A DNA stretch of 32,418 nucleotides from Candidatus Abyssobacteria bacterium SURF_5 (GTDB lineage Bacteria; Abyssobacteria; SURF-5). The stretch spans positions 1 through 32,418 of the forward strand of contig QZKU01000034.1 in the NCBI GenBank assembly GCA_003598085.1, written 5' to 3'. The first letter of the stretch is position 1. The number at the start of each line of letters is the position of its first letter. Positions 4,217 through 11,373 of the stretch are shown piece by piece. The translations under genes were made by a program, and so were the position numbers. The notes under the pieces were generated by a model that saw only the letters and a list, made by a program, of their open reading frames with translations, was not told the origin of the DNA and ran no database searches.

Positions 4217-4540
4217 CTACTTTGAGTCAAACTGTACACAAGTGCATCTCCGCCACTCCGGCACGTATGCGGAAAGAACGCTCTTGAAAAGTCTTCCGTG
4301 ATTTGGGATTCTCATATGCAGCAGTTCGTGGACAATGACATAATCTTGAAAACGGTCCGACTCGTTCAAGAGATCAGTTGAAAACGTCATTCGGCCACTT
4401 GTCGAGTGGGAAGCCCATTTGCGGGTCATCTTTTGCAGGCGCACCTGCTCCGGCTGAACCTTTATCCTTTTGGCCCAGGATACCACTTTTTCCTTGAACT
4501 GTTGAGCTTCCTGGGCATTTTTCTCTTTCTGCTTTTTCAT
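4217..4540 (-). CDS. YgjP-like (DUF45/M48-type) zinc metallopeptidase domain
   Basis: A 107-aa protein with the zinc-protease motif HELLH at residues 71-75 and a candidate third ligand in NHGRLF (H81). The RKWASHSTSGRMTFS segment (40-54) matches the conserved R-W-G-S-x-S strand of YgjP/DUF45 proteins. It is about half the size of E. coli YgjP and amounts to the catalytic domain with a short charged helix in front. Its ATG overlaps the hsdR stop by 4 bases (ATGA), so it is the fourth cistron of the type I R-M operon. Small metallopeptidases of this kind are recurrent partners of type I R-M systems. Its substrate is unknown; turnover of HsdR is one speculation. Confidence 0.85.
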   Translation of the reverse strand: MKKQKEKNAQEAQQFKEKVVSWAKRIKVQPEQVRLQKMTRKWASHSTSGRMTFSTDLLNESDRFQDYVIVHELLHMRIPNHGRLFKSVLSAYVPEWRRCTCVQFDSK

Positions 4541-7458
4541 TGACGGCGTAATCTCAAAATCGCTTCAGTCAGGTCAACCATGCGCTTCGGACTGACGACG
4601 CGAAGCAAAGAGTTGTAAATCTCAATTTTCAATTGACGCTGCTCGTCGGTGTTCGTGGCATAGTTCGGAAAGCGTTCGTAAGCAGCCGTAATTTCCTTTG
4701 CGATTGCTTCGGCGTCCGGCAACTTCTCCTGTTTCAACAGCCAGAACACTTCGAATGTGTCTGGATCAAGGCCACTTTCCTTGCGCGCTTTTTCAGCTTC
4801 AAACTTCTCCCGCATTAAGGCTTCTATTCTCTCCATGGCGTCTTTTGTCGATACCTGGCGATCCTCCAAAGCCGCCATGACAGCCTCGGCGCGGTCGGAA
4901 ATGGAAATTAGATACGGCTCCTTCTCGCCCCGCTCGTTGGCCGCTTGCGTCAGGCTCTTCACGAGGTTGACGATCTTCGGATTGTCCGGTCCCTTCTTCT
5001 TTTTCAATGCTTCCAGCGCCGCCGCGTCGAATTCGACGGTTTTGGTCATTTCGTTCAGATATGCTTCGGCGCTGTCACGAACCAGCATCTCCGTCTTGTG
5101 CGCTATGTCGCCGTAAAACATGGTCTTCTTGCCATAGGCATTTCGCAGCATGACGTAAATATCCACCAGGCGGTTGTAGTCCTCTATATGGTCTCTCAGT
5201 TCCGGGTCTGGCGACAGAATCTCATACAGTGTCTCCAGTTCTTTGAAGAAATCGGCGAACTGCTGTCGTTTATCCTTGTCCATGAATTCCTCGTACAGCA
5301 GCCTGTCCAGCTTCTCGTCGTTACCGCCTCCTTTGCCGGCTGCTTCCAAATATTTTTTGCCCGGACCGGCCATCAATTCCTTGAAGCGGGCAAACAGCAC
5401 GTCAAGGTCTTCGATCACACCGCTCACTTCATCGGAATCGAACGCGAGCGCCTTATTCAATTCCTTGAGAACACCCACGAAGTCGATTACGAGGCCACAG
5501 GGTTTCTCGACGCCCTCAGCATCCACGTACGGGCGGTTAACCCGCGCGACGGCCTGCAGCAGCACATGGTCGCGCATCGGCTTATCCAGATACATGCAAT
5601 ACAGGATGGGCGCATCATAGCCGGTCAGAAGCTTGTCAGTGACAATGAAAATCTTCGGCATCTGGTCAGGCTTCGGGAACTTCTTGCGCTCCTTTTTCTC
5701 GCTGCTCTCGTCCAACTGCATATCCGCGACAAGAGGACGGTCAATAGCGTCCGCGGCATTTTTCGTATAGATCGGGGTGGAATACTCCGGAGGCAGATGC
5801 TTGTCAAGCGCGCGTTTGTAGAGCGCGCATGCTTCGCGGTCAACCGCAACAACGAAAGCCTTATAACCAAGCGGTTCGACGAATTTCTTGAAATGATCGG
5901 CAATGAACGCCGCCACCTTTTCGACGCGGTCATTTCCCTTCAGGAACGCCTTCAAATGCACCGCACGATCAAGAATGCGGTTCAACTCATCAATGTCGCT
6001 GACGCCTTCGGTTTCGATCAGGCTAAAGAACTCCTTTTCGAGCAGGTCGTCGGGAAGCCGAACATCGCTCGGCGCAAGCGTGTGCCGAAGCTTGAGCGTC
6101 GTTCCATCTTCGATGGATTCCCTGATGGAATACTTGTCGAGGTACCCTTTATCGTCCTCCTTGCCAAATGTCTTGAAAGTACCCTTGCCGTACGCTGTCT
6201 TGTCTATCGGCGTGCCGGTGAAGCCGATCAGCGTGGCGTTCGGCAGCGCACCCATGAGGTAATTGCCAAGGTCGCCACCCATCGAACGATGCGCCTCGTC
6301 GATGAGGACGAAAAAGTCCGACCGCGTACACGAGTCTTTGCGGATATCCTTGAACTTGTGAACCATCGAAATGATGAGTCCCCGGAAATCCTGATCGAGA
6401 ATGTCCTGAAGCCTGGCGCGGCTGTCTGCGGTGGCAATCTTTATATCACGCCCCTGCATCTCGCCCACAAGCCGTTCAATCCAGCCGGACAACTGGCCTT
6501 CGAGCTCGTTCCGGTCGACAACGACCATTACCGTGGCGCCGGGGAAATCTTTCTTGTTCTCCAGAATGAGCCGCGCAGCCGTAATCAGCGTGAACGTCTT
6601 GCCGGAACCCTGCGTATGCCAGATGAGACCTGTCTTCTTCTGCAGATCGCCGCAGCGCCGCACCACTTTTACCGCCGCCCGCGTCTGGTGCTGACGCAGG
6701 ATGGTTTTCTGTAATTCATCGTCTTTCAGGAAGAAAAGAATCCACTCCTTCAGCATTGCCAGGAACAGAGAGCGATCAAAAAAAGCCTGGACGGCTTGCT
6801 TATACGTTTCGGATGGCTGCTCTTTCCAGCGGAAGATATTTTTTCGCGAATAGTTCCATGTGACGCCGTAGAAATATTCGATCAGGTGCGTGACATTGAA
6901 GACCTGCGGCATCGTGAGCAATTCAGGTGTTTCCAATTCATACCGCCGGAGTTGCTTTACTGCGCGTTCCATCGCGTCCGGCAGTTTCGGGTTCTTGTTC
7001 TCGACAATGGCAACCGGGACTCCATTCACGAGAAACATCACATCCGCACGATTGCCTTTCTTGTTCAAGGCTCGGAATGTCCATTCGTAGGTAACGTGGT
7101 AGACGTTTTTTATCAGCTCCCCAAAATCCACCAGGGTTACGTTCCGATACCGTTTCTCGCTTTCATCATAAATTGTCCTGTTGCCGCGCAGCCATTCGAG
7201 GATTTCGCGGTTGCCTTCGATGGTGTTCGGGACACTCTCCATGCGCTGAATGATGGATTGCACGTTATCTGTGGTGACAACTCCTGGATTCAGCCGGAGC
7301 AGAGCCTCCTCCAACTCTTTTTGAAAAAAGAGCCCTGCCTCGCCACTGCGCAGACGTAAGGCCTCCGTGTCGGATACGGCCGTCCAGCCGATTTCCTCAG
7401 CATGCTTGATCAGCGGAAACTGCACTGTGCCTATTTCGCTTGCGAGTGTTTTAGTCAT
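4537..7458 (-). CDS. hsdR: Type I restriction enzyme R (restriction/translocase) subunit HsdR
   Basis: The motor and nuclease subunit of a type I restriction-modification complex, which translocates and cuts DNA lacking host methylation. At 973 aa it has the usual size. The N-terminal PD-(D/E)xK nuclease residues are visible as D139 and the E-N-K of VAIVENKNP (E153, K155). The SF2 translocase follows, with Walker A HTQGSGKT (281-288), DEAH box LIDEAHRSMGG (387-390) and motif III GFTGTP (412-417). The helical C-terminal region is rich in charged residues. It begins in the ATGA overlap with the hsdS stop and ends in an ATGA overlap with the YgjP-like gene. All catalytic motifs look intact. Confidence 0.97.
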   Translation of the reverse strand: MTKTLASEIGTVQFPLIKHAEEIGWTAVSDTEALRLRSGEAGLFFQKELEEALLRLNPGVVTTDNVQSIIQRMESVPNTIEGNREILEWLRGNRTIYDESEKRYRNVTLVDFGELIKNVYHVTYEWTFRALNKKGNRADVMFLVNGVPVAIVENKNPKLPDAMERAVKQLRRYELETPELLTMPQVFNVTHLIEYFYGVTWNYSRKNIFRWKEQPSETYKQAVQAFFDRSLFLAMLKEWILFFLKDDELQKTILRQHQTRAAVKVVRRCGDLQKKTGLIWHTQGSGKTFTLITAARLILENKKDFPGATVMVVVDRNELEGQLSGWIERLVGEMQGRDIKIATADSRARLQDILDQDFRGLIISMVHKFKDIRKDSCTRSDFFVLIDEAHRSMGGDLGNYLMGALPNATLIGFTGTPIDKTAYGKGTFKTFGKEDDKGYLDKYSIRESIEDGTTLKLRHTLAPSDVRLPDDLLEKEFFSLIETEGVSDIDELNRILDRAVHLKAFLKGNDRVEKVAAFIADHFKKFVEPLGYKAFVVAVDREACALYKRALDKHLPPEYSTPIYTKNAADAIDRPLVADMQLDESSEKKERKKFPKPDQMPKIFIVTDKLLTGYDAPILYCMYLDKPMRDHVLLQAVARVNRPYVDAEGVEKPCGLVIDFVGVLKELNKALAFDSDEVSGVIEDLDVLFARFKELMAGPGKKYLEAAGKGGGNDEKLDRLLYEEFMDKDKRQQFADFFKELETLYEILSPDPELRDHIEDYNRLVDIYVMLRNAYGKKTMFYGDIAHKTEMLVRDSAEAYLNEMTKTVEFDAAALEALKKKKGPDNPKIVNLVKSLTQAANERGEKEPYLISISDRAEAVMAALEDRQVSTKDAMERIEALMREKFEAEKARKESGLDPDTFEVFWLLKQEKLPDAEAIAKEITAAYERFPNYATNTDEQRQLKIEIYNSLLRVVSPKRMVDLTEAILRLRRQ

Positions 7459-8675
7459 GGTTGGATTTCGCTCACATCAATATCGAGATCTGCGAGACGG
7501 ATTTGGCCAGTCATCAAGTGGTGAAGCATCGTTTTGAATAGTTCCTGCAGTATTGCATACTTGTGGTTATGAATGCAGAACTTGAGGTCAATTGCCTCCA
7601 GAATGGAAACAATTTCATTCTGCTCAGGCAGTGCAGGTACAGGCACGAGAACCGAATCAATTGTCTTTGTGTTTATGTTAAATTTGCCATCAGCTGCTGG
7701 AGATGCGCGACCAGCTAGCTGTAAGGATCCGCCTGAGGTCATTGAAAAATACTGAAAGAAGGCGGCGGTAATATCTTCCGGTTTCAAACGAGCCCGTATA
7801 AGGTATGAGGCAAATAGAGCTTTTTTTGGTTGTCCTCTATAGACGGCACATCCTCCGACTCGTTCCCGCACTCCATTTGTACGGATGAATATCAGATCAT
7901 CCAATTCAAGTTCGTACGAGACGATCTCTCGCTTATTCAGCTCGCACCATTTCACGTCTCCAGTATTCACCCGGCCCTCTGCAATATTTGGTATGCGCAG
8001 AACAGGATTTCCCTTGCCATGATATCCGCACTTAGCAGATGTTCCATATTGTAAAAATTCACGAAGTGTCTCGAATGGCCGAAGTTCCCAGCTTTCCGGC
8101 AGCGGGCCGATCTCGGTTTCCTTCTGCGATTCCCCGCGAAGACCGCGTGTGAAAAGCTGATGCATCACCGATTGTTTCAACTCCCGTGCTGTCTCAATCA
8201 GCTTTTCTTCTGTTTCTATTGCGCGCTGAATCTTCCAAAGTACCGCGGCAATCCTTTCCTGTTCGGGTTTGGGAGGGCGACGAATTTCTTGTTCTTTCAA
8301 GATGCTGAAGTGTCGGTTATACCCACGACTTGGCAATGGTAGGTGCAGACAAGCATAGTAGAAGAATCTCGGATTGAAATCGCTACTCGGCTTGAGAAGC
8401 TGAGTTCCATCTGCACCAAGTGCAAACGGAAAATTTACGTATTTGAATGCACGTGTATGGTCGCCAAAAAGGATAAACGGTAACTGTTCTCGAATTGAGA
8501 CGGAATCATCATTTGTCCAGCCAGCGATATATTTCTGGCCCTGATCGATAATTGGGATTTTGCCACTCGGTTTATAATCCCTTGCTAGCAATTTCCGAGG
8601 CTTTTTCATTTTGATCTTGTCAAGGCAGTCCTGAAAAGGAATCATCTGCCACTGCTTATCGTCCGAAATGCTCAT
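7455..8675 (-). CDS. hsdS: Type I restriction-modification specificity subunit HsdS
   Basis: The DNA-recognition subunit, 406 aa, with the standard two-repeat layout. Target recognition domain 1 covers residues about 1-135. The first conserved helical spacer begins [19 protein letters not shown] (about 136-153) and continues to about 180. Recognition domain 2 covers about 195-350. The second spacer begins [18 protein letters not shown] and runs to about 395. Two different target domains imply a bipartite asymmetric recognition site, whose sequence cannot be read from the protein. It overlaps hsdM and hsdR by 4 bases each. No inverted-repeat cassettes or extra hsdS fragments are seen nearby, so there is no sign of phase-variable shuffling. 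Confidence 0.95.
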
Positions 8676-10489
8676 AATTGTACAATCTCATCAAAGATCT
8701 TTTTGATTTCAATATCAATGTCTCGTGCATCAGCATTTAACCTGTTTAGGTCTTCAATAATCGCGCGAATATCTCTCATTCGCTCGTTGTCTATGGTGGA
8801 CAGGTAACGCGAAGGCGACAGGTTGTAGTCGTTCTTTTCGGCCTCTTCGTTTGTGATTGCCCTTACGAAGCCATCTTGAGGCTTTGCTTTCAGGAAGGCG
8901 TCAGCAATCTTCTTAACTGCTTCGTCGGGCAGATAATTCTTCGGTGAACCTTTCAGAAATTCCTGGCTGGCATTTATCAGGGTAATTTTGCCCTTGCGTT
9001 CTTTCGGCTTGTTCTTCCGCAGGACAATGATAATGCCGGCAGCGGTCGTGTTATAGAAGAGATTATCCGGCAGCAGGATTACTCCATCAATAAGGTCCCG
9101 TTCCACAAACCACCTGCGGATATTTCGCTCCTTGTCCTCATGCTTGCTGCCGCTGCCGCGCGTCACCGCGCCGGTATCGAGAACTATGGCGGCTCTCCCG
9201 GTTTCCTTCATTGTCGCCAGAGTATGCTGCAGCCATGCCCAATCGCCCTTGCTCGTGGTGACGCCGCCCTGCTCTTCAAAACGCTCAAAGGGGTCATCTT
9301 CATAAACATCCGGCCTGAACGGCTGGTTCCACATGGGATTCGCCACCACGACATCGAATTTTTTCAGCCGGGTGTCGCTGTCCTTGAATTTCGGATTCCG
9401 CATGGAGTCGCCGCGCACAACTTCACCCTCCATGTCATGAATGATCTTGTTCATGCATGCGATAGCGTAGCTTGAGCCGGTAAACTCCTGCCCGTAGAGA
9501 CGGAGCGGGACCTTTGAGAGCGGATCGAGGCGGCGAGAGACAAGCTGTAACTTGATAAGCAATCCATACGAGCCGCACGCGTAATCGTAGCACTCTTCGC
9601 CGGGACGCGGGCGCATGATTTCGGCGATGAGAAAACCGACCTCGGTAGGAGTGAAGAACTCTCCCGCGCTCTGCCCCTGTCCTTCGGCGAATTTCCGCAA
9701 AAGATACTCATAGCAGCGCCCGAGGAAATCCGGCTCAACATCGTGCAAGCCGAGCCGGTAACGAGGATCGGAAAAGGTCTGAATTACTCCGCTCAAGGCG
9801 GCATCGCTGATTTCACGTTCGCCGTTCCGGGTCTCGTTGTAGTCCACAATATCTATTACCCCGGCGAGAGACGGATTATGTTTCACAATGGCGCGGATGG
9901 TCGTGGTAAGCTGCTCGCCAAGCGATTTCGGTTCCTTGTCTTTCGGCCATTCGAAGGGAACGCGTCTGCTCACGACCGGCCAGCGGGCTTCGGGGGGCAG
10001 ATAAAAACGAACAAGAGAATGGTCGGCTTCCAGAATCTCATGGGCCGTCTTCTCATCGCCGAACCTCTCAACAAGCCGCTGGATTTCATCATCGAAAACG
10101 TCGGACAGCCGCTTGATGAAGAGCAAGGGGAGAATATAGTCTTTGAATTTCGGAGCGTCCTTTTCCCCACGTATTGAGCAAGCCGCATCCCACAGCATCT
10201 GTTCCATGCTCTTGTTGCCGAGGACCTTGCTCTTGGCGACGCCGCGCCTGCGACGAGGCAAAGCTTTCACCGCTGATTCCTCTTTCTGTTCATCCCCGAA
10301 CAAGTCATTCTCATCCATCAGCTTCTGAATGGCCTCCATTTGCGCCCTTTGCGGCTTTACGTTCCCTGACTCCCATCTGTTAACCGTTGCAAATGAAACA
10401 TTTAGAAGCGAAGCAAGCTGCTCCTGACTTAGATTCAACCTTTGCCGGAGCTCGCGAATCATTTCACTGAAAGCTTTTGCCTTTTCCAT
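8672..10489 (-). CDS. hsdM: Type I DNA methyltransferase subunit HsdM fused to an N-terminal XRE-type HTH
   Basis: An adenine-N6 methyltransferase subunit of 605 aa. Residues 8-45 form an XRE/Cro-type helix-turn-helix ([20 protein letters not shown], then RWESG), joined by a basic linker ([13 protein letters not shown], about 76-88) to the HsdM helical bundle (95-260) and the catalytic domain. Motif X is GEFFTPTEV (276-284), motif I is YDYACGSYG (301-309) and motif IV is NPMW (384-387). Motifs I and IV differ from the textbook DPACGSGG and NPPF/Y, although the fold context is complete. The HTH resembles controller proteins and suggests autoregulation of the operon promoter directly upstream. 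The start codon is only about 2 bases from the predicted transcription start. First gene of the hsdM-hsdS-hsdR-YgjP unit. Confidence 0.93.
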
Positions 10490-10497
10490 GATTATGC

Positions 10498-10526
10498 AGT
10501 ATATGCTATAACAAACATAATGTCAA
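10498..10526 (-). promoter_or_regulatory. Promoter of the hsdM operon, probably giving a (nearly) leaderless mRNA
   Basis: Read on the minus strand, TTGACA (10526-10521) and TATACT (10503-10498) are separated by 17 bases, a near-consensus sigma70 promoter. Transcription should start near 10491, and the hsdM ATG is at 10489-10487, leaving almost no 5' leader. A weak dyad TATG-N10-CATA (10502-10519) fills the spacer and could be the operator for the HTH fused to HsdM; this is inference. Confidence 0.75.
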
Positions 10527-10590: not shown

Positions 10591-10881
10591 TTACCTTTGC
10601 TTGTAAGGCTTCTGCAATTCCTGCAATTTCTTTTCTGTTTCTTTAGCGATACAATCTAACTCGTGTTTAAATCTATCTATCTGGTACTGTAACTCCTTCA
10701 AATTCACGCAACTTGGGGAAATTAACTTGGCATCCAATCCATCAATACTGGATGTTAGTGCTTCGATAAACATATGAACCGTTTTGTACTCTCCATTCGG
10801 TCCGGTCGGAATAATCACTCCCAGCAATCTTCCACCGTCTTTTCCCACAACGACAGGAGGTTTCTTCTTTTGCTTTTTCAT
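10591..10881 (-). CDS. Small hypothetical protein, charged, C-terminal coiled-coil-like
   Basis: A 96-aa protein not recognised. The start was chosen at the ATG at 10881 (MKKQKKK) because a strong GGAGGGGG lies about 5-7 bases upstream; a longer frame to 10923 has no such site. It has a basic N-terminus, a short beta-like stretch (GRLLGVIIPTGPNGEYKTVH, then MFIEAL) and a C-terminal helix rich in E, K and L (ELQYQIDRFKHELDCIAKET) that looks coiled-coil forming. No signal peptide or membrane segment is seen. It lies about 100 bases upstream of hsdM on the same strand but ends before the hsdM promoter, so it is probably a separate unit. Confidence 0.6.
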   Translation of the reverse strand: MKKQKKKPPVVVGKDGGRLLGVIIPTGPNGEYKTVHMFIEALTSSIDGLDAKLISPSCVNLKELQYQIDRFKHELDCIAKETEKKLQELQKPYKQR

Positions 10882-11007
10882 GTATTCCCCCTCCAGTTTG
10901 AAGATCTCCAGAATGTCTATCATGGCAGCTGTTGCTAATCACATCCTAATTCATGTAAAAGGTTCAATTATCCCTCATCCTCACCCTTTTGCTTGATGCG
11001 CGTATTT

Positions 11008-11373
11008 CTATTTCATCTTTAAAACGAGGCGATTTTCTGAGCGCTCGAATTCCTTGTACCTACGCAACCTGTTTAAAGCAGCAAAGCCACCCGCTGCAAC
11101 ACCTATGGAAGTAGCGGCGATTGCCGCGGGTAGTCCTAGGATTCCAACAGTTGTACCACCGACTAATGCTGCTACCGGTGCTGCAGTTCCGGCGCTGGAG
11201 ATGACGATTGCTATCGCAATGGCAATAGCTCCACCAGCAATTAACCAAGCTACTTTCCCAGTAGCTCGTATGCGGATGACTTTGTCTTTAAGGCTGCCTT
11301 CAATGATAATGGTGCTCACTTTTTCCTTGAGCGCTTGTCCAAGATCCTTCTCTGTCGTCACCGTCTTTTCCAT
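11008..11373 (-). CDS. Small two-helix, glycine/alanine-rich membrane protein of unknown function
   Basis: A 121-aa protein with a soluble N-terminal part (residues 1-40) followed by two hydrophobic segments (about 42-70, and 72-96 with GG, GxxxG-like and AAxxA spacing) and a short basic tail (RLRRYKEFERSEN). The Gly/Ala spacing resembles glycine-zipper membrane hairpins. A good ribosome-binding site (AGAGGAGAC) precedes the ATG at 11373. It sits upstream of the other small gene on the same strand, 84 bases away from its longest frame. No family is recognised. It could be a small pore or membrane anchor, but I see nothing that proves a function. Confidence 0.6.
   Translation of the reverse strand: MEKTVTTEKDLGQALKEKVSTIIIEGSLKDKVIRIRATGKVAWLIAGGAIAIAIAIVISSAGTAAPVAALVGGTTVGILGLPAAIAATSIGVAAGGFAALNRLRRYKEFERSENRLVLKMK

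Follow-up and report, generated by a model that had tools for sequence, protein, structure and literature searches.

Type I modification subunits with an N-terminal helix-turn-helix domain as candidate repressors of their own, predicted leaderless operons

INTRODUCTION

The Type I modification subunit encoded in the stretch of DNA analysed here (32,418 nucleotides, hereafter the window) carries an XRE-type helix-turn-helix (HTH) domain at its N-terminus, and its gene starts a few nucleotides behind a promoter. This raises the question of whether the methyltransferase of a Type I restriction-modification system could control the operon that it heads. An earlier note on the window had read this HsdM as a combined methylase and controller protein binding over its own promoter, and had suggested counting HTH-HsdM fusions in databases and searching relatives for a conserved operator.

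A comparable layout is known from Type II systems. M.EcoRII, M.SsoII and M.Ecl18kI are m5C enzymes that likewise bear an N-terminal HTH on the modification enzyme, and the flexibility of the M.SsoII linker is reportedly the topic of a study. According to two papers (PMC12707154; PMC3874152), these methylase-repressors have an operator over their own promoter and limit their own gene; the restriction promoters are divergent in the examples described there, whereas the Type I M gene studied here heads an M-S-R operon. Regulators of Type I operons have also been described. HsdC of Mycoplasma gallisepticum regulates an hsd operon (PMC5282649; PMC12707154) and is a separate protein with direct repeats, (GTGTTAN5)2, unlike the HTH fused to HsdM. 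RptR, from an E. coli defence island, represses a Type I operon and is reported to lack close structural homologues (PMC12255303); it too is a separate protein, not fused to HsdM. Among the titles listed from an open-licence library, none was on an HTH-HsdM autorepressor, which does not prove that such work is absent, and a term search of a review of Type I systems (PMC3874165) did not find 'helix-turn-helix'.

RESULTS

On the minus strand of the window, the genes follow in the order hsdM (8672..10489, 605 aa), hsdS (7455..8675) and hsdR (4537..7458). Neighbours overlap by 4 bp each, so repression would hit three genes and not restriction alone. Pfam searches found HsdM_N and N6_Mtase, Methylase_S, and HSDR_N and SWI2_SNF2 domains in the M, S and R genes, respectively. 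The locus also gave a PADLOC MTase_I match (E 1.7e-154), and hsdR scored above the cut-off of NCBIfam TIGR00348; HsdM (P0001) stayed below that of TIGR00497 (194 vs 242.75). Judged by its genes and family domains, this is a Type I restriction-modification operon. Two small minus-strand ORFs upstream of hsdM (10591-10923 and 11008-11373) had no Pfam or NCBIfam match at E 0.001.

The gene boundaries, domain searches and an AF2 model together define hsdM as an HTH-HsdM fusion. The XRE/HTH_3 domain spans aa 11-56 (10322..10459, minus strand; Pfam E 3.1e-10) and is followed by a linker (aa 61-93; 10211..10309), the HsdM_N domain (aa 95-239; 9773..10207) and the N6_Mtase domain (aa 253-568; 8786..9733), all on the same strand and the last two assigned by Pfam. 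In the model (mean pLDDT 83), helices form the HTH at aa 2-60, and a linker that is mostly modelled as disordered (pLDDT <50 at aa 65-93) and contains a conserved basic run, PRRRR, connects it to a Type I M fold. Across the window and 79 relatives, R80 is kept in 66 and R81 in 69 of the 80 sequences, and R15, Q22, V31, N37, R38, W39 and E40 are invariant. The Cro-like HTH and basic linker described in the earlier note are thus borne out by Pfam, by the model and by the conserved Arg run. As in the Type II methylase-repressors, the HTH lies N-terminal to a methyltransferase; this one is of Type I, with N6_Mtase, hsdS and hsdR.

Modelled alone, the HTH forms four helices (pLDDT 88). Foldseek likened it to C.Esp1396I and to C.BclI, P22 c2, C.AhdI, C.Kpn2I and HipB, these five weakly (TM about 0.65-0.8, E 7e-3 or weaker), with P22 c2 about as close as C.BclI (7e-3) and the best E value, 1.6e-3, going to a designed protein. 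The closest solved M subunits were those of PacII M1M2S (7vs4, 7vru; 31-35% identical); these alignments cover the M part, beginning at query aa 88 and 91, and leave the HTH outside.

We scanned 84,980 species genomes for relatives, confirmed 197 of 237 candidate stretches and used the best 80 of the 197. The HTH is in frame in 79 of these best 80, the other (L051) being cut by a contig end; HTH_3 was matched in all 56 aligned members scanned singly (window and 55 loci). The best 80 of the 197 loci fall into 18 named phyla, with 4 loci unplaced. In one relative's phylum, 97 of 398 genomes matched at E <= 1e-40 in a survey that scored at most three candidates in most genomes, and only two, including the seed genome, held the HTH-fusion kind; the other matches listed from those 398 genomes begin at aa 72 or later and are at most 41% identical. 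Judged by these sequences, the HTH-HsdM fusion is a widespread yet rare family. Plasmid members were sought and dropped as a candidate group: all 436 matching records stayed below 60% identity, and the 60 of the 436 that were listed begin at aa 74 or later. One HsdM on a viral contig (L100, 3400-5503; 65% identity) is without the HTH and retains the basic linker and the methylase.

The family also differs in catalytic motif IV, which in N6-adenine methyltransferases usually reads NPP(F/Y). In the window the alignment places NPMW here (aa 384-387; 9329..9340, minus strand), and the same letters occur in all 80 family sequences (window and 79 loci) and in the first 10 viral relatives to be identified. 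In each control locus, that is, in each of 31 loci with an HTH-less HsdM, the best HsdM gene reads NPPF (31/31, 7 of these via an alignment gap), and further genes in these loci read NPPY; a count over all aligned control pieces had given 24 NPPF, 7 NPPY and 7 gapped before we recounted one gene per locus. Because NPMW retains the Asn, the first Pro and an aromatic residue, the predicted methyltransferase may still be active. Scanning viral contigs with the pattern NPMWNQ gave 47 stretches, of which 13 had an HsdM relative, and two of these (L154, L157) begin without the HTH. Since both have NPMW, this motif possibly predates the HTH, unless these two have lost the HTH. The titles of literature matches for NPMW and methyltransferase concerned leukaemia, other blood diseases and glioblastoma.

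The operon promoter named in the earlier note was confirmed by sequence and promoter scoring: on the minus strand, the -35 TTGACA (10521..10526) and the -10 TATACT (10498..10503) are separated by a 17-bp spacer, and the -10 ends 8 nt ahead of the hsdM ATG at 10489. No Shine-Dalgarno-like site was found in this 8-nt gap (10490..10497), inside which the transcript start is predicted. A start 6-8 nt past the -10 would give a leader of 1-3 nt, so the earlier estimate of about 2 bases is fair as a prediction.

We then compared 87 family promoters, namely those of the window, 79 of the 80 genome loci and 7 of 10 viral loci (L091-L096 and L098), leaving out L051 (contig end), L097 (accepted range without a start), L099 and L100 (no HTH), L102 and L164. 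The predicted gap between -10 and start codon is 4-11 nt in 58 of the 87 (6 or 7 nt in 48), longer in 26 and of another kind in 3; in shuffled sequences a 4-11 nt gap was reached by a mean of 8.3 and a maximum of 16. The window, with its 8 nt, falls in this leaderless set. A Shine-Dalgarno-like site was seen in 1 of the 58 promoters with a 4-11 nt gap vs 16 of the 26 with a longer one. TTGAC stands 34-38 nt ahead of the start in 42 of the 87 vs none of the 31 HTH-less controls, of which 29 could be read (L117 and L119 yielded no start, and in several controls a GTG or TTG was guessed to be the start). Scoring of -35/-10 pairs in the 87 did not find a near-ATG promoter in L021, L028, L070, L075 and L079; in L028, another in-frame ATG follows 18 nt downstream of the first, preceded by CATAGCAAAC. 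On this evidence the hsdM message is predicted to be leaderless, with the transcript starting at, or within a few nucleotides of, the ATG.

In a quick, unrooted FastTree built without the HTH columns, leaderless-type members flank the deepest split on both sides, and the 17 rows with a Shine-Dalgarno-like site all lie inside one clade of 20 (support 99). One change between the leaderless and Shine-Dalgarno states is enough, or 10 if the 10 unclassed rows are taken as a third state. Because leaderless-type members occur on both sides of the deepest split and one change suffices, the leaderless form is probably older than the form with a leader, as far as an unrooted tree can tell.

The upstream regions of the relatives share an element built on TATAGCA half-sites. 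It reads TTTGnTATAnCAAA or TGYTATAGCA, corresponds in the window to the core dyad TTTGTTATAGCATA (10502-10515, minus strand) and continues as repeats towards the ATG. Aligned at the ATG, 40 leaderless-type members read approximately TTGC-ATATAGCAAATATAGCAAAC-ATG-ACAAA, a 9-bp repeat extending into the coding sequence. The repeats reach codons 2-3: Thr2 is ACA in 41 of 44 genes vs 4.4 expected from each gene's own usage, and an ACA after the ATG could, on another reading of this bias, help leaderless translation instead. Of the clade that has a leader and Shine-Dalgarno-like sites, many members still carry TGCTATAGCA at the -10. The dyad TATG-N10-CATA, which the earlier note had put forward as the conserved operator, is present in the window, but what the relatives conserve is the TATAGCA-based element.

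Several counts tie this element to the family's promoters. The 14-bp dyad TTTGnTATAnCAAA, allowing at least 10 of 12 matches, occurs in 28 of the 87 promoters vs 0.85 expected from shuffles. Three dyad patterns, picked after viewing the promoters, lie within -80..+10 in 41 of 80 loci, miss the other 39 and occur once elsewhere in 953,340 bp. Half-sites were found in 70 of the 87 family promoters vs 1 of the 31 HTH-less controls (29 of which could be read), and none was found within 300 bp upstream of hsdM in L154 (54% identity) or L157 (48%), two near relatives on viral contigs that are without the HTH. A conserved operator in relatives, looked for as the earlier note had suggested, therefore exists as a predicted element that many of them share over the promoter and that co-occurs with the HTH.

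A held-out test used a matrix from 44 distant-clade promoters, taking only the bases before the ATG. In the window, this matrix ranked 10492-10516 (minus strand) first of 64,788 positions, with 17.0 bits and the next position at 10.75; we take this stretch, which overlaps the spacer, -10 and predicted transcript start, as the predicted HsdM operator (10492..10516). Applied to the other near-clade loci, 35 in all, the matrix placed the best site of the promoter first in 7, among the top three in 13 (0.4 expected), among the top ten in 22 and worse than tenth in 13.

A wider regulon in the window's genome was considered and rejected. TGYTATAGCA was found at 5 places, and its 7 hits on both strands stand against 41 for a backward control pattern, so the pattern is not enriched. 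Two of its occurrences (L089, 265-274; L090, 780-789; both on the same contig of the window's genome) each precede an ORF of about 100 aa by about 15-26 bp; the two ORFs are similar, and the placement may be chance.

DISCUSSION

The fusion, the common operator element, its co-occurrence with the HTH and the conserved distance between promoter and ATG, all read from sequence, make it likely that HsdM represses its own M-S-R operon, whose promoter would be leaderless, as a Type I counterpart of the Type II methylase-repressors that would, like them, act from an operator over its own promoter. The N-terminal HTH, on its flexible basic tether, would bind TATAGCA half-sites arranged as a dyad and repeats, and the bound half-sites would cover the spacer, -10 and transcript start. 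HsdM that has accumulated would then exclude RNA polymerase. We infer repression and not activation because a repressor fits a site in this position better than an activator does; the whole operon would accordingly be limited by HsdM. A transcript that begins at the ATG, or a few bases from it, would be a leaderless message and would need no host-matched Shine-Dalgarno site. On entering a new host, the operon might thus first be transcribed at full rate and later be throttled, which would make it a portable, dose-compensating module. The combined methylase and controller of the earlier note stands in so far as a conserved predicted operator lies over the promoter and goes with the HTH, and falls in the dyad that was proposed for it.

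We consider it unlikely that the HTH acts as a biphasic controller in the manner of C proteins, activating at low dose and repressing at high. The modelled HTH does resemble C.BclI, C.AhdI and C.Esp1396I, several half-sites stand in series, and the C genes of two Type II families are commonly leaderless (PMC4824078). C proteins, however, are as a rule separate and small, and activators as well, whereas here the HTH is fused to HsdM and the predicted operator sits on the -10. The conserved half-sites occupy the spacer, -10 and start, a logo drawn to -45 shows little conservation upstream of the -35, and both hexamers are near consensus, so an activator should be unneeded.

It is very unlikely that the HTH is an extra DNA-binding arm that aids methylation or restriction while a host factor reads the promoter motif. 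The basic, mostly disordered tether could lend non-specific affinity for DNA, but the motif tracks HTH-hsdM over many phyla and was not found in the two HTH-less near relatives, and a host factor common to all these bacteria yet acting at this promoter is improbable. That the conserved bases near the ATG are promoter and leaderless-translation signals only is likewise very unlikely: the -35, the -10 and the ACA after the ATG do belong to them, but the motif is dyadic and extends well past the -10 hexamer, and many members of the leader-bearing clade retain the palindrome at the -10.

The earlier note had suggested that methylation state could be coupled to expression of the restriction subunit, and EcoRII-like methylation dependence is known in Type II systems (PMC12707154); at the hsdM operon such dependence is unsupported. 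Between relatives, mean identity is 35% for HsdS vs 66% for HsdM (5,256 ordered pairs; 4 without an HsdS hit). Conservation of the operator alongside an HsdS that sets the target and varies far more than HsdM makes it unlikely that the operator is, as a general rule, a methylation site.

An improbable extension of autorepression is that the operator reads free HsdM and that attack induces the operon, perhaps with NPMW as part of a changed catalytic cycle. If this were true, HsdM would be pulled into M2S or R2M2S complexes by foreign DNA that is unmethylated, or by antirestriction proteins of phages that mimic DNA; it would leave the operator, and the operon would be induced from a leaderless message that needs no host-specific ribosome site.

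In the HTH-HsdM family, candidate regulator and candidate operator are both defined, and the prediction that they give is clear. Its distribution suggests that a leaderless, self-limiting promoter has been kept with one gene over many phyla, which matters for the way in which Type I systems become established after transfer.

In the relatives, further genes may lie between hsdS and hsdR. In 39 of the 59 loci in which both were located, the hsdS match and hsdR are at least 450 bp apart, measured from the end of that match, a distance that partial hsdS matches may inflate; examples are 9122-11859 in L036, 9043-11123 in L012, 3694-4542 in L044 and 10045-11037 in L031. Ten ORFs from such gaps were checked; one had no match, and the others include Fic, RhuM-Fic, protein kinase, patatin, Bro-N, DUF3800, HATPase_c_4 and AAA_21/DUF4435 proteins.
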